A program made the translations under genes and the position numbers. Shown here one piece after another: positions 21,655-43,604 of a stretch of 64,000 nucleotides of DNA; within the stretch, counting starts at the first letter, position 1, and each line of letters opens with the position of its first letter. The stretch is from Tepidanaerobacter syntrophicus (GTDB lineage: Bacteria; Bacillota; Thermosediminibacteria; Thermosediminibacterales; Tepidanaerobacteraceae). The stretch lies in contig NZ_DF977003.1 of NCBI RefSeq assembly GCF_001485475.2, forward strand, positions 372,001 through 436,000, written 5' to 3'. The notes under the pieces are model-generated. The model made no database searches. It saw only the letters and a list, made by a program, of their open reading frames with translations, and was not told where the DNA came from.

Positions 21655-22265
21655 ATGTCAAAGCAGGAGCAGGCGGTGCAGTATTCTAGTCAAAACCACT
21701 CCTCTGAAGGCGGGGCTAAAAATCCGTCGAGGGCACATCGATGAAGTTCTTGGTGCTGGCCGCTGACGCCCAGTCGGGGGCTGGTGCTGGGAGTAAGGAG
21801 GATGGGGCGATCTACAATGGCATGTAGGCGTTGACCCTACCTCCGCGGAGACCTAAGTGCGTGGCTCCAAGAAAATACTGAAAGTTACGGCTTAGGGTGT
21901 GAACCTGCATCCGATGAATGTTGGGTGCAGCGTAGCCTGCCTTGAGTGGGATGGGCGGAAAAAGGATGTTACTTGATATGTGGTTTGGCCAAACCGCATA
22001 TCAAATCTTTACCTTTGAAATCCATCCTGCAAAAGAGGCTAGGAGGAGTCAGGTTTTGGTGAGGAAAACTCCTAGACTGTTCCGCAAGGAGATAGACAGG
22101 GGATTACAGTGTGGACTAAGTGGCAATCTAGCCCTGTTTTTGGCAACAAAGCAGCGGTGGACTTAAAGGGGAACCGTCTTTTCGGCAACGATTAGATGTC
22201 TGCCGGGGAAATCCTGCTAGACCTAAGCCACAAAATTTACCCTGCCTATTACCGCCTGCTCACGT
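21655..22265 (+). ncRNA. OLE RNA (ornate, large, extremophilic RNA)
   Basis: A non-coding block of about 610 nt, much richer in G+C than its surroundings, lies between ispA and a membrane protein of the OapA type. Size, position and many internal complementary segments (GGGGGCTGGTGCTGGG, CGGGGCTAAAAATCCGTCGAG, GGTTTGGCCAAACC) fit OLE RNA, which is found next to isoprenoid genes in extremophilic anaerobic Firmicutes. OLE forms a membrane RNP with OapA and other partners and is linked to Mg2+, cold and alcohol stress in Bacillus halodurans. Open frames inside it (such as 21942-22166) have no ribosome sites and are not genes. Confidence 0.9.
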
Positions 22266-22285
22266 ATAAAAATGGAGGTAATTTA

Positions 22286-30059: not shown

Positions 30060-30097
30060 TATAAAAAATTAAATATGTACCTCATCTCAGAAAGAGT

Positions 30098-30281
30098 TGA
30101 GGTAGAGGTGCGATAGGTCAAGAGTAAATTTGTGGAGACTTGGGAAAGTCAATTAAACAAATCGAAAGGGACCATCGCCGAAGTGTGGTTTCCCCAAAGC
30201 CACGCTGGGCTTATGCCGAATAGGTATAAGACTGTCACCAAAGTTTTAATTTAACTAAGATTTTGGTGAAGCGCTACTTCA
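30098..30281 (+). promoter_or_regulatory. Lysine riboswitch (L-box)
   Basis: The aptamer shows the class signature in order: AGAGGTGCG, TCAAGAGTA, GAAAGGGACC, ATCGCCGAAG, GCTGGGCTTATGCCGAATAG, and the closing GCGCTACTTC pairing back to GAGGTAGAGGTGC. Lysine binding stabilises the aptamer and favours the downstream terminator, lowering lysA expression. Confidence 0.96.
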
Positions 30282-30312
30282 GGAAGAGAGAGGTATTTGC
30301 CTAAAAAACTAA

Positions 30313-30364: not shown

Positions 30365-31699
30365 ATGTATCATGGACCGTGCAAGATTAATGAACTTGGT
30401 CATTTGGAAATAGGTGGGTGCGATGCTGTAGAACTTGCAAAAGAATTTGGAACACCCTTATATGTTATGGACGAAGAATGTATACGTGAAAATTGCCGTT
30501 TATATAAGGAAAATTTAAATAGTTTATATAAAAACAGTGATGTGATATATGCCGGAAAAGCTTTTCTTACTGTTGAAATGTGTAAATTAATAGAAGAAGA
30601 AGGATTAAGCTTAGATGTGGTATCCGGTGGCGAACTTTACATGGCACTTCAAGCCGATTTTCCTGCAAAAAGAATATACTTCCATGGGAATAATAAATCC
30701 TATGATGAACTCGAGATGGCAGTAAGGCATGGGGTAGGACATATAATAGTAGATAATTTCTATGAGTTGGAGCTGCTAAGAGATATTACCAGTAAACTTT
30801 CAGGCAGAAAAGTAAAAATACTTCTTCGCCTCACGCCCGGAATCGAGGCACATACTCATGATTATATAAAGACAGGTCAAATTGATTCCAAATTTGGCTT
30901 TGGTTTAGAAAATGGACATGCTTTTATGGCCATAGAAAATGCACTAAGCATTAAAAATGTAAAATTGATGGGATTCCACTGCCATATAGGCTCACAAATA
31001 TTTGAAAAAGAGCCCTTTAGAGAAGCAGCTGATATAATGGTGCATTTTGCAAAGATGGTTGAAGAAAAATATGGATTTAAGACCCAAGAAATAGATTTTG
31101 GCGGTGGATTCGGTGTAAGATACACAGAAGAAGATAAGCCTTTAGAAGTAAGAGACTATCTTGAAACTCTTGTTGAATCGGTTATAGAATCCTGTGAAAA
31201 ATATAATCTATCCGCACCTAAGATATTAATAGAACCGGGAAGAGCGATAGTTGGAGAAGCCGGCGTCACTTTATATACTATAGGCGCCATAAAGAATATC
31301 CCAGGAATTAGAAAATATGTCAGTGTAGATGGCGGAATGAGTGATAATATACGACCTGCCCTTTATAATGCAAAGTACTCAGCTGCTATTGCAAATAAAG
31401 CAAAATGGCCGGCCGAGGAAACTGTTTCTATTGCCGGAAAATGTTGCGAATCTGGCGACATGTTAATTTGGGACATAGATTTGCCTAAAATTGCTCCCGG
31501 CGATATATTAGCTGTCTTTACAACAGGTGCATATCACTATTCTATGGCAAGCAATTATAATATGCTGCCAAGACCTGCTGTAATTTTTGTAAGGAACAAA
31601 ACAGCGCGGCTGGTTGTGCGCAGACAAACATATGAGGATTTACTAAGTTATGATATTTCGCTGCCTAGCGCAGCTAAAGCGTTTTCTGCAAGTGTTTAG
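30365..31699 (+). CDS. lysA: Diaminopimelate decarboxylase
   Basis: LysA converts meso-diaminopimelate to lysine. The 444-aa fold-type III PLP enzyme has the cofactor lysine in IYAGKAFLT (Lys65). The phosphate-binding GFHCHIGSQI and FGGGFGVRY lie within the barrel, and EPGRAIVGEAG follows. The C-terminal CCESGDML has the Cys/Glu substrate residues. It is a single-gene unit under a lysine riboswitch. Confidence 0.96.
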   Translation: MYHGPCKINELGHLEIGGCDAVELAKEFGTPLYVMDEECIRENCRLYKENLNSLYKNSDVIYAGKAFLTVEMCKLIEEEGLSLDVVSGGELYMALQADFPAKRIYFHGNNKSYDELEMAVRHGVGHIIVDNFYELELLRDITSKLSGRKVKILLRLTPGIEAHTHDYIKTGQIDSKFGFGLENGHAFMAIENALSIKNVKLMGFHCHIGSQIFEKEPFREAADIMVHFAKMVEEKYGFKTQEIDFGGGFGVRYTEEDKPLEVRDYLETLVESVIESCEKYNLSAPKILIEPGRAIVGEAGVTLYTIGAIKNIPGIRKYVSVDGGMSDNIRPALYNAKYSAAIANKAKWPAEETVSIAGKCCESGDMLIWDIDLPKIAPGDILAVFTTGAYHYSMASNYNMLPRPAVIFVRNKTARLVVRRQTYEDLLSYDISLPSAAKAFSASV

Positions 31700-34971: not shown

Positions 34972-35394
34972 ATGGGAGATCCTTATAAGGATAAAATGTT
35001 TAAGTCAAATCCATATGCCAAGAAAAAACCCTTAAAGGGAAATCTTGTTGTGGTGCTAGACGGAAAATATGAAAACCGCGGCCTAAATCTTATTCAACAG
35101 CCATCAAGATGTCTTGCCGCAAATGACGTGCATGAAATGATTTTAACAGATGAAGACAAGAAACCCGGAGAAGTAGTAAATAAAATTGCATACATAGGTT
35201 TTTTTGCCGTTAAGGAAAGTGCAGTCATTGTTGCAGGTGACGAAGTTAAAATTAACGGAGAGATCATCGGGAAGATTGCAGGATTTGATGAGACGCACAT
35301 GCCTAACCATTACAATATCGTAATATATGGCAAGGATCGCATTTCCGGAAATGAAAGAAATCTTAACCTTGATGATGAAGTTATCATTGGTTAG
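34972..35394 (+). CDS. Unrecognised 140-aa protein, first gene of the PLP/flavoprotein operon
   Basis: I do not recognise the family. The first 30 residues are basic and probably extended (YKDKMFKSNPYAKKKPLKG). Then follow beta-rich segments: GNLVVVLDGKYENRGLNLI, a middle IAYIGFFAVKESAVIVAGDE and KINGEIIGKIAGFDETHMPNHYN. The C-terminus is acidic. No signal peptide, membrane helix or Cys motif is seen, so it is a small soluble protein, perhaps a subunit or metabolite-binding partner of the enzymes downstream. It follows AGGAGG. A TATAAT at 34925-34930 may belong to its promoter, though the -35 is weak. Confidence 0.75.
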   Translation: MGDPYKDKMFKSNPYAKKKPLKGNLVVVLDGKYENRGLNLIQQPSRCLAANDVHEMILTDEDKKPGEVVNKIAYIGFFAVKESAVIVAGDEVKINGEIIGKIAGFDETHMPNHYNIVIYGKDRISGNERNLNLDDEVIIG

Positions 35395-35437
35395 TTTTTA
35401 ACAACATTGTTTTAATCTTTGAAAGGAGGTGTATTGA

Positions 35438-35896
35438 ATGTCTTTTGAAAAAAAATTGCAGGAAATGGGAATTACCTTACCTGAGCCACCGAAACCCGTA
35501 GCAGCATATGTTCCCGGCGTTAAAGTCGACAAATATATTTATACTGCCGGCCAGATACCTTTTGTAGGCGGCGAACTGAAGTACAAGGGCAAAGCTGGTA
35601 AAGAGGTATCGGTTGAAGAAGCTTATGAAGCGGCAAAGATATGTGCATTAAACTGCCTAAGTATTGTTAAGTCTTTGGCAGGCAGCCTTGATAATGTGGA
35701 AAAAGTAGTTAAAGTAGTTGGGTTTGTAAATAGTGCAGATGGATTCAACCAGCAGCCAAAAGTTATAAACGGTGCTTCTGAATTGATAGGCGAGATTTTC
35801 GGAGAAGCAGGAGCTCATGCTCGTTCAGCTGTTGGCGTAAATCAGCTCCCTATGGATGCTACTTGCGAAGTTGAGCTTATAGTAAAGTTAAAATAA
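35438..35896 (+). CDS. RidA family protein (imine deaminase-like)
   Basis: The 152-aa protein shows the RidA/YjgF fold: KYIYTAGQIPFVGGELKYKG, YEAAKICALNCLSIVKSLAG, VVKVVGFVNSADGF. The C-terminal RSAVGVNQLPMDATCEVELI includes the conserved substrate Arg. RidA hydrolyses reactive enamine/imine intermediates released by PLP enzymes. A PLP enzyme gene follows 18 bp later, so detoxifying or completing its reaction is a reasonable role. It is longer at the N-terminus than classical RidA (about 125 aa), like the LF-type subgroup. Strong AAAGGAGG site. Confidence 0.88.
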   Translation: MSFEKKLQEMGITLPEPPKPVAAYVPGVKVDKYIYTAGQIPFVGGELKYKGKAGKEVSVEEAYEAAKICALNCLSIVKSLAGSLDNVEKVVKVVGFVNSADGFNQQPKVINGASELIGEIFGEAGAHARSAVGVNQLPMDATCEVELIVKLK

Positions 35897-35914
35897 TTTT
35901 TAGGAGGATTTAGA

Positions 35915-37381
35915 ATGGCTAAATTTACAAAGAAATTTGAGATGTATAAATCTTTACAGGCAAATATCCAAAATATTTACGCCGATGCTAGAAAAGCAGC
36001 TGACGAAATAGGCATTCCTGCAGAACTAAGAGGAAAGTTTGGGCTTACAGGTGCTGTTTCAGGATGCCCCAGTCCTTTGACAAAAAAAGTAAGAGAAGCA
36101 ATGGACAAAGGTGCAACCGAAGTTATTCCTTTGGCTACATTGGTAGATCAAATAAGAGGCTTAGTTAAAGATGTATATGGTGATGATTATGACGCAGCGC
36201 CTATAAATACTTGTGAAGCCGGACTGTGGGTTACATTTGACGCATTATTTACTACTCCTATGCAAGGCCGCGGCGATGGTTATCAAGCCCGCTACATCAT
36301 TCCTTATGAGAAACATTTACACCACCATGGTGGATACGGAAGACCTTTCCCCGGCAGATTTAAAGATATTTTAGCAGACAGAGGCGCAACCGCCGGTGAA
36401 CTAGGCTTTTACGGAAAAAGACAAAATAATCTAAGTGTATACATCGCACCTTTGGTAGGTGCAGATTACTCAGTGCATGGCATTAAGTATCATCCCGCAA
36501 TTCAGCTTACAAAGGTTGATCCTGAAGCTTCCGCTAAGAAGATTAAGACGATAGCTGAAAGACAGGCTTCAATGCTTACAGGTATCACATCTCTTGCATA
36601 TGATACTCCGGGCTATGGATATGGCGTAAAAGATAGCGACGGTGTGCCTGTGCTCCAGAAGCGTTTGGCAGAGATAGCCAAAGATTTTGATGTGCCATAT
36701 GTAGTCGATAATGCATGGGGAGTTCCGTTTATTGGTCATGATATCAGAAAGAGCGGCGCTGATGTAATTATCTACAGTATGGATAAGGCAAGCGAATCAC
36801 CAACAGGCGGCCTTATCATAGGTAAGGAAGAGTTTATGGTACCTATTCGCAGAGCTCTTGGTATGCACGGTGACAGATATGGAACCACAGCATCATATGG
36901 CAAAGCAGCATATGTTACAAATGATCCTGGCAAAGAAGCAATGTTGGGCATGATAGCTGCACTAAAAGAAATAATAGATAATCCGGACGAGCTAAAGAAA
37001 CCGGTAGACGATATGTACAAGATAGTTAAAGAAGAATTTGACCAGATACATCCTAAGATTCGTAAAGGCTTAATAATATCAAAATCCTACAATTCAAGAG
37101 CAATTGAAGTCAACTACGAAAATACTTGGAATGACGGCGAGCTTGGACTGCCGATATTCTCAATAGAAGATATGTATGCCGGCACTCAACTGCTGCAGAC
37201 AGGTCTTTCTCAGATGGGCGTAATTCCTACAGTTGCATATGATGCCAATATAATGATTTCTCCCGGCCTTGGAACAACCGATGAGAAGGGTCAAATTATT
37301 GAGAGCAACTTCAGATATGCTGTAAAAGCCCAGGTTAAGCTCATGGAGATCGTTGCAAAATACAGCGGTTTCATCGACTAA
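35915..37381 (+). CDS. PLP-dependent enzyme of fold type I (SelA/SepCysS-like), substrate unknown
   Basis: The 488-aa protein has fold-type I landmarks. VVDNAWG places the PLP ring-binding Asp at 265, and IIYSMDKASESPTGG places the likely Schiff-base Lys at 291. A Gly/His-rich active-site loop, EKHLHHHGGYGRPFPGR, lies near 132-149. The N-terminal GAVSGCPSPLTKKVREAMDKG recalls the tetramer-forming arm of SelA-like and group II lyase/aminotransferase proteins. It is not a close match to any standard aminotransferase I know. Flanking RidA and FAD genes suggest amino acid elimination or oxidation; the substrate is unknown. Confidence 0.8.
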   Translation: MAKFTKKFEMYKSLQANIQNIYADARKAADEIGIPAELRGKFGLTGAVSGCPSPLTKKVREAMDKGATEVIPLATLVDQIRGLVKDVYGDDYDAAPINTCEAGLWVTFDALFTTPMQGRGDGYQARYIIPYEKHLHHHGGYGRPFPGRFKDILADRGATAGELGFYGKRQNNLSVYIAPLVGADYSVHGIKYHPAIQLTKVDPEASAKKIKTIAERQASMLTGITSLAYDTPGYGYGVKDSDGVPVLQKRLAEIAKDFDVPYVVDNAWGVPFIGHDIRKSGADVIIYSMDKASESPTGGLIIGKEEFMVPIRRALGMHGDRYGTTASYGKAAYVTNDPGKEAMLGMIAALKEIIDNPDELKKPVDDMYKIVKEEFDQIHPKIRKGLIISKSYNSRAIEVNYENTWNDGELGLPIFSIEDMYAGTQLLQTGLSQMGVIPTVAYDANIMISPGLGTTDEKGQIIESNFRYAVKAQVKLMEIVAKYSGFID

Positions 37382-37401
37382 TTTAAAAAGAAGTAAAACT
37401 T

Positions 37402-37435
37402 TAAAGGTAATGCTAAATTTTTAGCATTACCTTTA
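37402..37435 (+). other. Intercistronic 15-bp hairpin between the PLP and FAD enzyme genes
   Basis: TAAAGGTAATGCTAA is perfectly complementary to 37421-37435 around a 4-nt ATTT loop. The T stretch lies 15 bases further on, so it is not a classical terminator. It could stabilise the upstream mRNA or partly terminate. Confidence 0.6.
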
Positions 37436-37476
37436 AAGGCTAAATAATTTTTTATAAATAAGGGAGGTTTGTAAGT

Positions 37477-38760
37477 ATGCCAAAAGTAGTTGTTATTGGT
37501 GGTGGCTGGTCTGGTTCAGGTGCTGCTTTGGCAGCAAAAAAAGCAGGTGCTGATGTAGTGCTTCTTGAAAGAGCTGATATGCTCTTAGGCACTGGCCTTG
37601 TGGGCGGAATCATGAGAAATAATGGAAGATATACAGCAGCTGAAGAAATGATAGCAATGGGCGGCGGCGAACTGTTCCAGTTGATGGACAAGGTTTCTCG
37701 ACATAGAAATATTGAGTTTCCGGGACACAAGCATGCATCTTTATATGATGTGGCATTAGCCGAACCTGCGGTAAAGAAAGCGCTAATAGATGCCGGTATT
37801 GAAGTTCATACCGAAAGCAGGGTAACTGATGTAGAAGCTGACGGCAACAAAATTTTAGCTGTTGTAACTGATGATGGAAGAAAATATGAAGGCGATGTTT
37901 TTGTTGAGTGTACAGGTACTGCCGGTCCTCAAGTAAACTGCACAAAATACGGCAATGGCTGTGCCATGTGCATATACAGGTGCCATAGCTACGGAGGAAG
38001 AGTCAGTGTTGCAGCTAAAATGGGCGTAAAGGAAATGATGGCAAAGAAGGCCGACGGCACATATGGTGCAATGAGCGGATCGTGTAAACTCTTAAAAGAG
38101 TCGCTTTCAAAGGAGATCGTCGACAAGTTAAATAGTACAGGCGTTGCAGTTATACCGGTACCGGAACATGCTAGAGAAGATGCAAAAATCCTTACAAAAA
38201 AGGCATGCCAGCAATATGCACTCAATGAATATGTAGAAAATGTAATTTTACTTGACACAGGCCATGCAAAACTAATGACACCTTTCTTCCCCCTTGATAA
38301 CTTACGGCAAATTCCCGGCTTTGAAAATGCTCGCTACGAGGATCCATATGCAGGAAACCTGGGAAATTCAATAAGATATATGGCAATGTCGCCCAGAGAT
38401 AATCATCTAAAGACAGAAGGCGTAGAAAATCTCTTCTGCGGCGGAGAAAAAGCAGGACCATTAGTAGGCCATACAGAAGCTATTTGCACAGGCACTTTAG
38501 CAGGAGCTAACGCAGTTCGTTGGGCAGTAGGCAAGGAGTTGCTGGAGATCCCGACAGAACTTGCCGTAGGTGATGCCATAGCTTATGTTAAGGAACAAAT
38601 GAAGACTGAGGAAGGCATATCCAAGAAATATACTTTTTCAGGCTCTGTGTATTTTGAACGGATGAAACAACTGGGTTCTTATACAATAGATATAGATGCA
38701 ATTAAAGATAGGGTAGAAAAAGCAGGAATGACAAATATTTTCAATCAAAAGATCATATAA
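37477..38760 (+). CDS. FAD-dependent oxidoreductase (GidA/FumR-like fold), substrate unknown
   Basis: The 427-aa flavoprotein has an N-terminal dinucleotide motif VVVIGGGWSGSGAALAAKKA (GGGWSG at 8-13), an acidic strand end at VVLLERA and GGIMRNNGRY. The second FAD contact is VFVECTGTAGPQ, and a C-terminal FCGGEKAGPLVGHTEAICTG closes the FAD site. A Cys cluster, CTKYGNGCAMCIYRC, lies near 155-170, unusual for this fold and possibly catalytic or metal-binding. It ends the first operon (terminator at 38796). An amino acid or imine oxidation is plausible from context only. Confidence 0.82.
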   Translation: MPKVVVIGGGWSGSGAALAAKKAGADVVLLERADMLLGTGLVGGIMRNNGRYTAAEEMIAMGGGELFQLMDKVSRHRNIEFPGHKHASLYDVALAEPAVKKALIDAGIEVHTESRVTDVEADGNKILAVVTDDGRKYEGDVFVECTGTAGPQVNCTKYGNGCAMCIYRCHSYGGRVSVAAKMGVKEMMAKKADGTYGAMSGSCKLLKESLSKEIVDKLNSTGVAVIPVPEHAREDAKILTKKACQQYALNEYVENVILLDTGHAKLMTPFFPLDNLRQIPGFENARYEDPYAGNLGNSIRYMAMSPRDNHLKTEGVENLFCGGEKAGPLVGHTEAICTGTLAGANAVRWAVGKELLEIPTELAVGDAIAYVKEQMKTEEGISKKYTFSGSVYFERMKQLGSYTIDIDAIKDRVEKAGMTNIFNQKII

Positions 38761-38795
38761 AGCTTATAAACCATTATCAACGTTTACTCAACACT

Positions 38796-38823
38796 AAAGG
38801 AGTCATTTTGCATGACTCCTTTA
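38796..38823 (+). terminator. Intrinsic terminator of the PLP/FAD operon
   Basis: The hairpin AAAGGAGTCAT/ATGACTCCTTT has a 5-nt loop and ends in TTATTTT, separating the first operon from the regulator. Confidence 0.8.
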
Positions 38824-38920
38824 TTTTAAAGAATTTGTATTAAATGTAGAAATTAAAGATAAGTAGTGTTATGCTAATAGAAGTAAATTTAATTTTTGCA
38901 AAAGCAAGCGGAGGGTTAAA

Positions 38921-39682
38921 ATGCTACACGAAAAGCAGCGATTGCTGTTTTTTATATTAAAAATTATCGATAATTCAAAAGAAACTCCAGTAGGGTCAGG
39001 CTATATACGCAATATGCTAAAATTGCAAGGGTTTGACGTAAGTGAAGCCACTATCGGCAGAATGCTAAAAGAAATGGACTTTGAAGGATATACTGAAAAG
39101 ATTGGATTTAAGGGACGCAATTTAACGCCAAAAGGCAAGGAAAAGCTAGAGGAACTCGAACACGAAAATACAATCAACCGATATGGGAAAGAGTTAATGA
39201 AAGCGATAAAAGGAACAGGCAAACAAGAACTTATTGATATGCTTATTGCGCGAAAGGCGATAGAAAGTCAGCTTGCAAAGCTTGCTGCAATGTATGCTAC
39301 CTATGATGAAATTGAAAAAATGAAAAAGGTTATTGAAAGGCAGCGCGTTCACGTAGAAGAAGGAGTTTCTATAGCTGAAGATGATGTGGAATTTCATAAA
39401 CTTATAGCCAAGGCTGCAAGAAATAAAGTTTTGGATGCCGCGATGGATCTCATAAGACAGCACGGCCAGCTTTCACCTATGTTAGAGTATATAAGAAAAG
39501 AAGTAAAAGGTTCGGTGCTTTTAGAGCATGAAAATATTTTTAAGGCTATTGCCGCAAGAAAACCTGCTCAAGCAGAAAAAGCTATGATACGCCATATTGA
39601 AAGACTTGAAAATGATGTTAGAAAGTACTGGGAAAATTTTTATGAGGAAAATAGTCAAACCGGTAATAGCGATATCGTTTAG
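38921..39682 (+). CDS. Transcriptional regulator: winged helix plus FCD ligand domain
   Basis: The 253-aa protein has a winged helix at residues 1-78 (RLLFFILKIIDNSKETPVGS, DVSEATIGRMLKEMDFEGY, GRNLTPKGKEKLEEL). This looks like the NrpR/RNase R-type HTH rather than a normal GntR helix. Residues 90-240 are an FCD domain: LIARKAIESQLAKLAA, then the metal set Asp/His in DVEFHKLIAKAA, His in LLEHENIFKAI and His in RHIERLE. FCD domains bind carboxylates or amino acids with a metal. It lies between two operons and probably controls one or both. Confidence 0.85.
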   Translation: MLHEKQRLLFFILKIIDNSKETPVGSGYIRNMLKLQGFDVSEATIGRMLKEMDFEGYTEKIGFKGRNLTPKGKEKLEELEHENTINRYGKELMKAIKGTGKQELIDMLIARKAIESQLAKLAAMYATYDEIEKMKKVIERQRVHVEEGVSIAEDDVEFHKLIAKAARNKVLDAAMDLIRQHGQLSPMLEYIRKEVKGSVLLEHENIFKAIAARKPAQAEKAMIRHIERLENDVRKYWENFYEENSQTGNSDIV

Positions 39683-39706
39683 TAAAAGACGATTAGGAGG
39701 GTTAAA

Positions 39707-39940
39707 ATGCCTGATGTTTTAAAAAAAGTTATGGATGCTGTTGATATAGAAACTTATTTAGTATGCAAAGATGAAGATGAGGCAGAAAAACTAACCTTTA
39801 CTTTAATGGAGCAATTGGGCTTTAAAGATGTATCAATTGTTTTTCTTCAACACCAGGGACCGGGAGCAAGGGTTAGGGCACGGGGATATGTTTATAAGCC
39901 CGGTGACCGCTATGGATGGCTTTCGGATGAGACTTGTTAG
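39707..39940 (+). CDS. Stand-alone aminomutase (OAM/KamE-type) dimerisation-domain protein
   Basis: The 77-aa protein reads as one alpha/beta domain: EDEAEKLTFTLMEQLGFKDV, then SIVFLQHQGPGARVRARGYV. From memory this aligns with the N-terminal dimerisation domain of lysine 5,6-aminomutase beta subunit KamE, which has a helix ending in KKMGFENP followed by a VxHxQxLGxG strand-turn. In KamE and OraE that domain is fused to the B12 domain; here it is a separate gene 15 bp before the B12 mutase. It probably acts as the small subunit. Family assignment is by recalled similarity. It follows AGGAGG. Confidence 0.65.
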   Translation: MPDVLKKVMDAVDIETYLVCKDEDEAEKLTFTLMEQLGFKDVSIVFLQHQGPGARVRARGYVYKPGDRYGWLSDETC

Positions 39941-39955
39941 GGAGGGCAAATCAAC

Positions 39956-41779
39956 ATGGAAAATGAATTTGTAAAAAAGAAAGTACTTTTAGCACCCCTT
40001 GATCCAGTGCACGATATTGGCCTTAAGATGATAAAAAGAGGATTAGAGAAAAGAGGCCATGAAACTATACTTTTGCCACCAGATTATTCTGCTGAAGAAA
40101 TAATAAAGACGATAATAGATAAAAATGTTGATGTAGTTCTTGTCAGCCGCACAATTGGTTACGGCGTTGCGGAAATATTAGGAAAATTCATTGACTTAGC
40201 TGAAGCTGCAGGAATCAGAGATAAAGTGCGCATAGGCATAGGTGGCATGGCGATACGACCGGAACTTGCTGCAGAACTTGGATTTGATGCCGGCTTTGGT
40301 CCCGGTACCACAGTTGAAGAAGCTATTGCTTTTGTGGAAGGAAGGGAATATGTTCCGGCAGAAGGAAAAAATGCAAAGGTTAAAAAAGATATAACAAAAG
40401 GATATGACTATGAATTCCACAATAAACGTATTGAGAAATTACTTGACTCAATTGTAGATGCCATCCTTTCTTATGTAAGCGATAAAACCAGTCCCGCCGT
40501 TTTAAGGGCGCAAATTAGAAGGCAAATGTTAGAATCTAGCGATGAGAGTGAAATACAGAGTCTCAGAAAGGATTACGCAGCTTTGTGCGATGATACGATA
40601 AAATCCTTTTATGAGGCCGGAAAATATCGCCAAAAAACTCGCCCCATGACAGAAGATGAGATAAATTCACTTACAAGATATGTGGATTCGGTAAACGAAC
40701 GGATGAAACCTCTTAATTTGCAGCACACCGGAAAAAATCCCGTAGTTTTTATTCAATATGGCACAGGGTGTCCCTTCATGGATATTGCTCATATTAAGTC
40801 ATGTGAAGCATGGGGAGCTGATGGAGCAGTCCATTTTGACCCGTCTTGGGGAGCTAGAGCCGAGGGATTTTTGGAAGGCTATATAACTCATGAAGAAGAT
40901 GGTTCTGTAATAACATATGAGAACCTTAAAAGCATAAAAAATTCGCTGCTGCCAAGCACACTTTGGCAAGTAAGGGCTCACCGAGGCTTAAATACCCCCG
41001 AAACTGTCCTGCTCGCGGGCAAAATTGGCGCTGATCTTACAAAAATAAACATCGCCTACGGATCCCTTGGAGGAGGCACTGACCCTGAACGTTTAACAGT
41101 AGATGCAGTAGAAGCCATCAAGTATGCGGCTGAGTTTAATATGCCCTTTGATGTTGTAACAAACGAAGAATTATGTGGCGTTCCGGCTTACAAAGCCTTT
41201 GCAGGAATGCTTATAGTATCAAAATTAGGTCTTAGGCTTGGGGGAAAGCCTATTTTACAGCCACTGTTTTGCTATTCGCCGGAAGTTATGATAAGTGGCC
41301 AAATGGAAGACAACTATGTAGACTTTAATGCCGCAAAAATTTATTGTCTCAGAAATATCGTTAATGCCCCTATATGGTGCGGCGCTCCCATAGGATTTTT
41401 GACTCAAACCGAAGATCGAGTTCAATCATCCTTAATGACTGCACTTCACGCATCTCTTGCTTCTTCACTAGGCGTTGACGGAATTTCCATAGCATCGTCT
41501 GACGAAGCATTTTCAGGAGGACCGATTACTGCTCCAGCGAGAATAGACACGCTAAGGGCTACTCAAGCATCTTTTAGATTCTTCGGTCAATCCAATATTA
41601 TTCCTACAGATAACGCTAAGAAATGGGCGGCAGATATCGAAGAAGGTATAGAAAAAACATTGGAACTTGTGGAAAAAAATGGCAACTTTGTTGATGCTTT
41701 GTATAAAGGACTACTAGGAAGCCGCGAAGACGGAGCATATCCCGGCAGAGCCGGAAGAAATTCTGTAACAAAAAAATAA
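39956..41779 (+). CDS. B12-binding domain plus TIM-barrel mutase, aminomutase-like, substrate unknown
   Basis: The 607-aa protein has an N-terminal cobalamin-binding Rossmann domain (8-125): LLAPLDPVHDIGLKMI with the cobalt-ligand-type His19, VDVVLVSRTIGYGVAEIL, RIGIGGMAI and ELGFDAGFGPGTTVEEA. The last part closely recalls KamE. A helical linker (about 135-240) leads to a TIM barrel from about 250: FIQYGTGCPFMDIAHIKSCE, TKINIAYGSLGGGTDP, GISIASSDEAFSGGP. The canonical DxHxxG Asp is shifted (DPVHxxG). The lysine loop that anchors PLP in KamE (about 11 residues after the His) seems absent. Domain order differs from OraE. Probably a coenzyme B12 isomerase. Confidence 0.8.
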   Translation: MENEFVKKKVLLAPLDPVHDIGLKMIKRGLEKRGHETILLPPDYSAEEIIKTIIDKNVDVVLVSRTIGYGVAEILGKFIDLAEAAGIRDKVRIGIGGMAIRPELAAELGFDAGFGPGTTVEEAIAFVEGREYVPAEGKNAKVKKDITKGYDYEFHNKRIEKLLDSIVDAILSYVSDKTSPAVLRAQIRRQMLESSDESEIQSLRKDYAALCDDTIKSFYEAGKYRQKTRPMTEDEINSLTRYVDSVNERMKPLNLQHTGKNPVVFIQYGTGCPFMDIAHIKSCEAWGADGAVHFDPSWGARAEGFLEGYITHEEDGSVITYENLKSIKNSLLPSTLWQVRAHRGLNTPETVLLAGKIGADLTKINIAYGSLGGGTDPERLTVDAVEAIKYAAEFNMPFDVVTNEELCGVPAYKAFAGMLIVSKLGLRLGGKPILQPLFCYSPEVMISGQMEDNYVDFNAAKIYCLRNIVNAPIWCGAPIGFLTQTEDRVQSSLMTALHASLASSLGVDGISIASSDEAFSGGPITAPARIDTLRATQASFRFFGQSNIIPTDNAKKWAADIEEGIEKTLELVEKNGNFVDALYKGLLGSREDGAYPGRAGRNSVTKK

Positions 41780-41807
41780 TGGTCAAACCACCGGGGGTTA
41801 TCTGATA

Positions 41808-42896
41808 ATGAGTGTAACAATAGGAATAGCCGGAACTGCAAAAAATACCGGAAAAACAACAACTACAGCGGCGATATTGAACGAGCTTTATAATCAAAAA
41901 ATAAGTGTCGGGCTAACTAGTATCGGATATGACGGCGAGGAAATTGACAACATTACGAGGCTGCCAAAGCCTCGCCTGTTCGTAAAGAAAGATACTGTTG
42001 TTGCTACTGCTAAAAAATGTCTCCAAGCAGGAAGCGCCGGCTATGACATACTAGAAGTCACTGACATCTTGACTCCCTTGGGAAAGGTATGCATTGTAAA
42101 AATTACCGCAGAGGGCATGGTGGTTATCGCAGGCCCAAACAAAGGCACCCAATTAAACTATATTAAATATAGAATGATAAATGATTTAAAATGTGAAGTT
42201 GTGCTAGTTGACGGGGCATTAAATCGGCTGGCCCCAATGACCGAAACCGACGGTATCATTATTGCAACCGGCGCTTCACGAACCACTAATATTGACGATC
42301 TGGTTGATGAAACAAAAGCACTTGCGGAATTATTTAATCTACCTGCTGTATCCAAAGACGAGAGCAAATATCTTTCAAACTTAGACAAAATAGCTCTTAT
42401 CTTCGACTTTAACAAAGAGCCTGTTCTATTGAAGTATGGTTCGCTTTTTGACAGTAAAATAGCAAGAGATATCTGCAAAAAAACAAAAGAAGAAAACAGA
42501 ACCGTAAAAATAATTTTTGTACCTGCGCTGATATCGGAAGCAGCTTTAAAAAATCTAAATAAATGTATGTCAGAATCGTGGAATGGCAAAGGTTTAATAT
42601 TAAAAGATTCTATAAAACTTATAATTGGCGGAAATCCGGAATCCATATTAATGGAAATAAACAAAATAGAAGCTGAGGGCGGAAACGTCAAAATATTAAA
42701 AACTATACCATTGCTAGCTATAACAGTAAATCCCTTTTATCCTAAATATTATTCGGCAAGCTGCACCTATGAAGCTGACTATATAAATAGGGAAAAGCTT
42801 TTAAAAAGTATGAGGGCATGTATTAATGTTCCTGTAATTGACATAGAATCAGACGGGCCACTGCCCTTGCTTGAAAATATAATAAGCCGCATTTAA
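41808..42896 (+). CDS. P-loop protein, possible B12-mutase reactivation factor (KamB-like)
   Basis: The 362-aa protein starts with IGIAGTAKNTGKTTTTAAIL, a P-loop of the KNTGKTT type. It continues with CEVVLVDGALNRLAPM (Walker B-like Asp) and IIATGASRTTNIDDLVDETK. These segments resemble, from memory, KamB-type proteins of lysine/ornithine fermentation clusters, which are thought to help reactivate inactivated B12 aminomutases. Its position directly after the mutase gene supports that. The second half (190-362) is unrecognised alpha/beta sequence. A MutS-like partner (KamC) is not found nearby. Function is inferred. Confidence 0.7.
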   Translation: MSVTIGIAGTAKNTGKTTTTAAILNELYNQKISVGLTSIGYDGEEIDNITRLPKPRLFVKKDTVVATAKKCLQAGSAGYDILEVTDILTPLGKVCIVKITAEGMVVIAGPNKGTQLNYIKYRMINDLKCEVVLVDGALNRLAPMTETDGIIIATGASRTTNIDDLVDETKALAELFNLPAVSKDESKYLSNLDKIALIFDFNKEPVLLKYGSLFDSKIARDICKKTKEENRTVKIIFVPALISEAALKNLNKCMSESWNGKGLILKDSIKLIIGGNPESILMEINKIEAEGGNVKILKTIPLLAITVNPFYPKYYSASCTYEADYINREKLLKSMRACINVPVIDIESDGPLPLLENIISRI

Positions 42897-42932
42897 GTTA
42901 AAAAGTTTAATTCAGCACAGGGAGGATAAATT

Positions 42933-43604
42933 ATGGAAACTGTATCAATTATAGGCGTAGGTCGTATGGGCAGCCTTTTAGCTCATAAAATATCTTATGA
43001 TTATAATTTAATTTTAATTGACAAAGACTTGAGAAAGTGCGGACTGTTAGCGCAAGAAATAGGCGCTCTAGCAACCGGAGAATATTCAATGCTAAAGCTT
43101 TCGGATTATATAATCACAGCTCTTCCTGCTAGTATAATACCGAATGTTTTAGAGGACATCAAGCCTTATCTTTCCGAAAATCAAATACTAATAAACATTT
43201 CTACCGATACAGAAAAGGATACCTTTAAACCAATACAAGGATTATGTAAACTTGCATCTGCAAAAATAATAGGTCATGCATTAAACATAGCTACAACAGG
43301 TGAACTGCCCTTGGTCTTAATAGATGCAGATGACGAGAATGTGCGCCAAAAAACCGCGGAAATTTTTGCGCACCTTGGATGCACTTGCTACGGAAGTGAG
43401 AAAACAGTAAAACTAATCAACAATATCGCAAGCGAAGAAGGAATAAAGGCCGCACTAACTATCGAAGCGCGCCTTAAAGAATTAAACATTCCTCCTGAAT
43501 ATATAAGTTTTGCAATAAGAAACGTAGCTTGTGGAACGATGAACGCGTATGCATTAGGGGAAGCCGGTCCTTTTGTCCAAAAAATTATAGAAAAGCTTAA
43601 ATAA
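42933..43604 (+). CDS. NAD(P)-binding reductase-like protein (ProC/F420 oxidoreductase-like)
   Basis: The 223-aa protein has a Rossmann start TVSIIGVGRMGSLLAH (GxGxMG at 8-13), LILIDKDLRKCG, then YIITALPASIIPNVLEDIKP and ILINISTDTEKD. This is the layout of pyrroline-5-carboxylate reductase and related imine or 3-hydroxyacid dehydrogenases. The C-terminal helices (INNIASEEGIKAALTIEA) are shorter than in ProC (about 270 aa). It ends the mutase operon before a long hairpin. Reduction of an imine or keto product of the pathway is a reasonable guess. Confidence 0.75.
   Translation: METVSIIGVGRMGSLLAHKISYDYNLILIDKDLRKCGLLAQEIGALATGEYSMLKLSDYIITALPASIIPNVLEDIKPYLSENQILINISTDTEKDTFKPIQGLCKLASAKIIGHALNIATTGELPLVLIDADDENVRQKTAEIFAHLGCTCYGSEKTVKLINNIASEEGIKAALTIEARLKELNIPPEYISFAIRNVACGTMNAYALGEAGPFVQKIIEKLK

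Follow-up and report, generated by a model that had tools for sequence, protein, structure and literature searches.

Nine adjacent genes at positions 34972-43604 of a 64,000-nucleotide stretch of Tepidanaerobacter syntrophicus DNA (contig NZ_DF977003.1, positions 372,001 to 436,000; hereafter the window, which is located on contig 9 of the 2.4 Mb genome) encode a vitamin B12 mutase and its partner proteins. Judged from sequence comparisons, this 607-amino acid (aa) mutase is probably a third lineage of the fold of lysine 5,6-aminomutase (KamDE) and D-ornithine 4,5-aminomutase (OraSE), and one that is independent of pyridoxal phosphate (PLP). To our knowledge, few types of adenosylcobalamin mutase exist. 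The radical aminomutases known to have this fold depend on PLP held inside the barrel, and migration of the amino group in this branch has been assumed to require PLP. An earlier note, made from the DNA sequence alone, had proposed an undescribed amino acid mutase system at this locus. We did find a conserved, apparently uncharacterised B12 mutase system distinct from KamDE and OraSE, in which the mutase, a dimerisation-domain protein, a reactivator, a PLP enzyme and RidA are linked, but amino shifting is doubtful since the residues that hold PLP are mostly gone.

The mutase consists of a B12 domain (approximately residues 1-130, with the motif D16-x-x-H19-x-x-G22; residues are numbered as in the protein from the window), a helical linker and a TIM barrel (approximately residues 255-607). 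Its AlphaFold2 model (29 relatives) had a mean predicted local distance difference test score (pLDDT) of 83.8. Foldseek and VIA-align showed residues 153-607 to be closest to the alpha subunit of lysine 5,6-aminomutase (PDB 8t0v_A; E = 2e-15; Z = 31.0 over 394 residues at 4.0 Å; see also PDB 1xrs), with which both the barrel and the helical N-terminal region are shared. The barrel gave lower VIA Z scores with glutamate mutase E (25.8) and ornithine aminomutase (23.8; PDB 3kow). By hhalign, mutase residues 160-607 aligned with KamD residues 16-503 (probability 90.6), and the B12 domain, which is 30-36% identical to KamE, matched KamE with a probability of 99. The 77-aa protein encoded next to the mutase has no matches in Pfam or NCBIfam, but hhalign aligned it with the dimerisation region of KamE (probability 88, E = 3e-6; the match to the corresponding OraE region was weak), which bears out its previous description as an aminomutase-type dimerisation domain. 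The two proteins thus contain the same parts as KamDE in a different arrangement: the dimerisation domain is a separate protein, and the B12 domain precedes the barrel in a single chain.

Could this simply be a lysine 5,6-aminomutase or ornithine 4,5-aminomutase system of the usual kind, mis-split into odd genes? The barrel is a remote KamD homologue and NCBIfam would call the reactivase KamB, as this explanation expects, but we consider it highly improbable. The 607-aa protein has no PF09043 match, and the genome has no canonical KamD. The name KamB also asks for a lysine 5,6-aminomutase partner, and OraE is the only protein of the genome that matches PF09043. This OraE lies on another contig in a canonical ornithine cluster with the full pathway (OrtA-, OrtB-, OraS- and OraE-type genes and a 460-aa reactivase-like gene). 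In the B12-domain tree, KamE and OraE were grouped to the exclusion of the mutase family (support 91), and the PLP site is lost, as described below. We therefore rejected an ordinary KamDE or OraSE identity on domain, tree and site evidence. That the locus lacks kamD, as had been noted, is true of canonical kamD only, because the mutase barrel is itself its remote homologue. A KamD-family hit in genome G067 was discarded as a false positive, the protein being chemoreceptor-like.

In lysine 5,6-aminomutase, PLP forms an aldimine with Lys144 of KamE, its pyridine nitrogen is contacted by Ser238, Tyr263 stacks against it, and its phosphate is bound by Arg184, Arg268, Ser189 and the backbone of residues 187-189 (PMC3958899). 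We examined these positions in a joint barrel alignment of 29 mutase-family, 17 KamD and 9 OraE sequences (55 in total). Arg184, Ser189, Arg268 and Ser238 were kept in 26/26 KamD and OraE rows, whereas in 29/29 members of the mutase family Arg184 was replaced by Asp, Ser189 by Ala, Ser238 by Arg and Arg268 by Gly or Ala. Gln188 (to Gly or Ala) and Tyr236 (to Ala) were also changed in the family; only the stacking Tyr263 was retained among these residues, as Tyr368. The insertion that carries the aldimine lysine (K144 of KamE, K629 of OraE) is absent from the mutase, as it is from methylmalonyl-CoA mutase and MetH-type domains; a control alignment of OraE with KamE by the same method placed the lysine correctly. 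The nearest lysine, Lys27, is at a variable position (55 K, 17 R, 2 N and 1 Q). Since every family member examined has lost most of the residues that hold PLP, the mutase is unlikely to carry out a 1,2-amino shift by the chemistry known for these enzymes.

The residues of the radical machinery, on the other hand, are retained. D16, H19 and G22 of the base-off/His-on B12 motif were invariant in all 75 sequences with residues at these positions. Glu517 is the equivalent of Glu338 of ornithine aminomutase, near the adenosyl ribose, and was Glu in 55/55 sequences; loss of Glu338 cripples ornithine aminomutase (PMC4413051). Arg340 and Arg343 were invariant in the mutase as well. On the simplest reading of this pattern, the mutase would be an active radical enzyme that operates without PLP. 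Glutamate mutase (GlmS/GlmE) is PLP-independent, and it shares with the mutase both the barrel fold and a B12 domain without the lysine-bearing insertion. However, its barrel family PF06368 (Met_asp_mut_E) had no Pfam match in the 607-aa protein and an hhalign probability of about 1 percent, the only likeness being a short QVR-H-TP stretch seen by eye in one barrel strand, and the genome encodes a separate GlmE.

The locus had been described as eight enzyme-type genes and one regulator, and all nine open reading frames were confirmed on one strand:

34972..35394, + strand: DUF6917 protein, 140 aa (PF21891, E = 1e-49); core member.
35438..35896, + strand: RidA/YjgF-family imine/enamine deaminase, 152 aa (PF14588, 1.6e-24; PF01042, 6e-16); frequent, not universal.
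35915..37381, + strand: divergent fold-type I PLP enzyme, 488 aa (weak SepSecS, SelA and DgaE matches); core member.
37477..38760, + strand: flavin adenine dinucleotide (FAD) oxidoreductase with a GidA-like Rossmann domain (GIDA/FAD_oxidored), 427 aa (PF01134, 3e-35; PF12831, 2e-18); common accessory.
38921..39682, + strand: FCD-family transcriptional regulator, 253 aa (PF07729, 1e-21); likely local regulator.
39707..39940, + strand: 77-aa protein, a stand-alone dimerisation subunit resembling the N-terminal domain of KamE (hhalign).
39956..41779, + strand: 607-aa mutase with B12 domain, helical linker and TIM barrel (PF02310, 8e-17).
41808..42896, + strand: KamB-type P-loop reactivase, 362 aa (NF052386); core member.
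42933..43604, + strand: NAD(P)-binding reductase-like protein, 223 aa (PF03807/PF03446); local addition, not core.

The gaps between genes are short (15-95 bases), apart from one of 160 bases that separates the FAD gene from the regulator gene, the first of the second gene group. An 18-pair inverted repeat at 37399-37438, between the PLP and FAD genes, is terminator-like on the minus strand and is possibly an attenuation or processing site. Scans for promoters and terminators gave results at chance level. As a clue to the substrate we looked for riboswitches, and found none within the locus or in the eight relatives checked.

The earlier note had proposed that the genes be searched for co-occurrence across Clostridia. 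The mutase was found in 39 of 398 sampled genomes from its phylum and, within its class, in 22 of 26 genomes. The PLP enzyme, DUF6917 and the KamB-type gene were each present in 39/39 mutase genomes of the phylum sample. Outside these, the PLP enzyme occurred in only two more genomes, G398 and G074, and DUF6917 in one. The hypergeometric probability of this co-occurrence is ~1e-52, a value that overstates the number of independent events because the genomes are related and no correction was made for shared ancestry. KamB-type genes are more widespread: they were also present in 63 genomes without a 607-aa-type mutase, where those checked adjoin kamD, and four genomes that have canonical KamD too (G099, G103, G135 and G138) contain a second, more distant KamB copy. 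In some of the 39 genomes the KamB-type gene is on a separate contig from the mutase.

Linkage was assessed at 38 named loci with flanks of up to 10 kb, some on short contigs, of which the closest to the window locus are Tepidanaerobacter and related records. It is far above chance. The 77-aa gene was present at 36 loci, nearly always adjoining the mutase gene, the PLP gene at 34, KamB at 33, DUF6917 at 29, the regulator at 28, the FAD gene at 24 and RidA at about 21. The NAD(P)-binding protein, although it had been counted as part of the system and is present in the window, was encoded at just 8 loci, all from close relatives, and is not a core member. Linkage of the genes is kept across Tepidanaerobacter, Heliobacterium, Desulfotomaculum, halophiles and a Treponema. 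The smallest gene set, in the Treponema (L076), comprises DUF6917, the PLP enzyme, the 77-aa protein, the mutase and the reactivase; Desulfotomaculum copahuensis (L071) adds the regulator. Nine other loci have a permease in the operon (e.g. L072:8208-9581) that has no credible family in Pfam or NCBIfam and that the window locus does not have.

Among the partner proteins, the reactivase had been recognised previously as a P-loop protein like mutase reactivators, and its score of 242.2 bits against NF052386 exceeds the cut-off of 210. The 140-aa protein, earlier listed as unknown, does belong to a named family, the domain-of-unknown-function family DUF6917 (PF21891). It is predicted to be a small all-beta protein (model pLDDT 94.9) with invariant His54, Glu55, Asp106, His109, Asn112 and His113. 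A PDB fold search gave a best E of 0.9 and no assignment, which is not proof of a new fold, and DUF6917 is not named in the open-access literature searched. In Thermosediminibacter litoriperuensis, DUF6917 and RidA form a single open frame of 303 codons (L080:5140-6048); such a fusion suggests joint action. RidA has matches to the Rid families above cut-off and a conserved HAR...LP...E motif with an invariant Arg in HAR. In the PLP enzyme, Asp265 and the predicted PLP lysine, Lys291, are invariant, and the region around the lysine aligns with DgaE and other SelA-like enzymes, a resemblance that suggests elimination or replacement chemistry. Unlike those enzymes, however, it is 488 aa long and scores far below every curated cut-off. 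The FAD enzyme has, besides its FAD domain, a C-x6-C-x2-C-x3-C motif that was invariant in the aligned members and is possibly an iron-sulphur site. Some loci, including L051:13716-16001, encode a second paralogue of the FAD enzyme beside a PyrK-like FAD/NAD protein (PRK05802), and a PyrK-like protein is added in seven of the 38 loci; this arrangement suggests an electron-transfer partner. In two genomes we observed extra DUF6917/PLP copies (L177:5998-10330, L181:7426-13959 and L179:6249-7527) next to acetolactate-synthase-like thiamine diphosphate enzymes, TctA/TctC-type (tricarboxylate-type) transport genes or an aspartate-dehydrogenase-like gene, a lead from single genomes only.

These partners bear on a further alternative, in which the mutase is a PLP-dependent radical aminomutase that holds PLP in the barrel by rearranged residues and moves an amino group within a new amino acid, whose product would be oxidised and cleaved much as the ornithine pathway does. 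The FAD enzyme and RidA would then replace the dehydrogenase, and the PLP enzyme and DUF6917 would replace OrtAB. The gene logic of a PLP enzyme with a small partner does parallel that of the ornithine cluster also encoded by this genome, where OrtA and OrtB accompany OraSE, and the fold and the Glu338 equivalent are common to both systems. The KamB-type reactivase, the closest fold and the retained stacking tyrosine, shared with lysine 5,6-aminomutase together with the KamE-like B12 domain, the dimerisation-domain homologue and the catalytic glutamate, also fit. Nevertheless, the aldimine lysine with its insertion, Arg184, Gln188/Ser189, Ser238 and Arg268 are replaced in every aligned member, and the partner genes differ from those of lysine 5,6-aminomutase. 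DUF6917 looks like OrtA by eye, but hhalign detected no homology between them (probability 0.35 percent; there is no OrtA structure in the PDB for comparison). The likeness of the PLP enzyme is to SelA and DgaE, enzymes of fold type I. We regard this alternative as unlikely.

We give about even weight to the full proposal that a PLP-independent adenosylcobalamin mutase carries out an undescribed radical rearrangement and supplies a novel route of anaerobic degradation that also involves a new PLP enzyme and the new small-protein family DUF6917. The enzyme would be formed by the 607-aa and 77-aa proteins and would bind adenosylcobalamin base-off/His-on via His19. Substrate binding would close the B12 domain on the barrel, Glu517 would aid cleavage of the cobalt-carbon bond, and the 5′-deoxyadenosyl radical would initiate the rearrangement of a substrate held directly, for example by Arg340 and Arg343, rather than through PLP. 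The KamB-type ATPase would swap out damaged cofactor. The PLP enzyme and DUF6917 may process the product or prepare the substrate; an ammonia-releasing elimination by the PLP enzyme is plausible, after which RidA would hydrolyse the enamine or imine and, in lineages that carry it, the FAD enzyme would remove electrons.

Several observations weigh against this proposal. The sequence similarity of the mutase to KamD is remote, as its hhalign probability indicates. Loops 296-302 and 480-487, probably near the active site, have pLDDT values below 50, and hhalign and MAFFT differ on the gap position around Arg184; a phosphate could therefore be bound by a different residue, such as Arg/Lys301. The minimal loci of the Treponema and D. 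copahuensis encode neither RidA nor the FAD enzyme, and the proposed later steps are thus not universal. Finally, genome G398 has DUF6917, RidA, the FAD enzyme and the permease, together with a fragment of the PLP gene where a contig ends, but no mutase was detected in it, and it represents a split or mutase-less copy of the system, while G074, a heliobacterium-like remnant, retains the PLP gene alone.

We then considered the direction of the pathway. In a biosynthetic cluster, the mutase would make an unusual amino acid, such as a compatible solute or the precursor of a modified metabolite, to be finished by the PLP enzyme, RidA and the FAD enzyme. Several carriers are halophiles or thermophiles, judged by their names, and CoA-transferase, thiolase and kinase genes do not recur beside the loci; both points favour this reading. 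But neither does a ligase, non-ribosomal peptide synthetase or acetyltransferase recur as an operon member, and the FCD-family regulator and the permease at nine loci point to uptake and use; we find a biosynthetic role distinctly improbable. In a degradative pathway, the product may feed straight into central metabolism, given the lack of recurring CoA-dependent steps. On balance we somewhat favour the view that the locus is a dedicated, probably catabolic pathway built around the third KamDE/OraSE-fold lineage, and most likely the mutase works with its own PLP enzyme and DUF6917 in degrading an amino-acid-like substrate.

If this is correct, the family would be a natural lineage in which the radical machinery persists without the PLP site, and would illustrate how enzymes of this kind switch to other reactions. 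With current family models, the compact gene set would be annotated as a lysine aminomutase reactivase, a hypothetical protein and a generic PLP enzyme, and the searched passages of the Tepidanaerobacter acetatoxydans genome paper do not mention the mutase locus. The carriers are syntrophic, thermophilic and halophilic anaerobes, and the system may explain part of their amino-acid turnover.

Three further features lie outside the locus. On contig 7 of the T. syntrophicus genome, a 577-aa protein (L173:3337-5067, minus strand) beside an opine-dehydrogenase-like gene has a weak B12-binding domain as its only family match, and is possibly another undescribed B12 enzyme. In the window, a lysine riboswitch at 30095-30284 (+ strand) lies directly upstream of a lysA-like decarboxylase gene (30365-31699) and is unconnected to the mutase locus. 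The window also contains an OLE RNA, a large structured RNA of extremophilic Firmicutes, at 21657-22271 (+ strand; Rfam RF01071, 520 bits).

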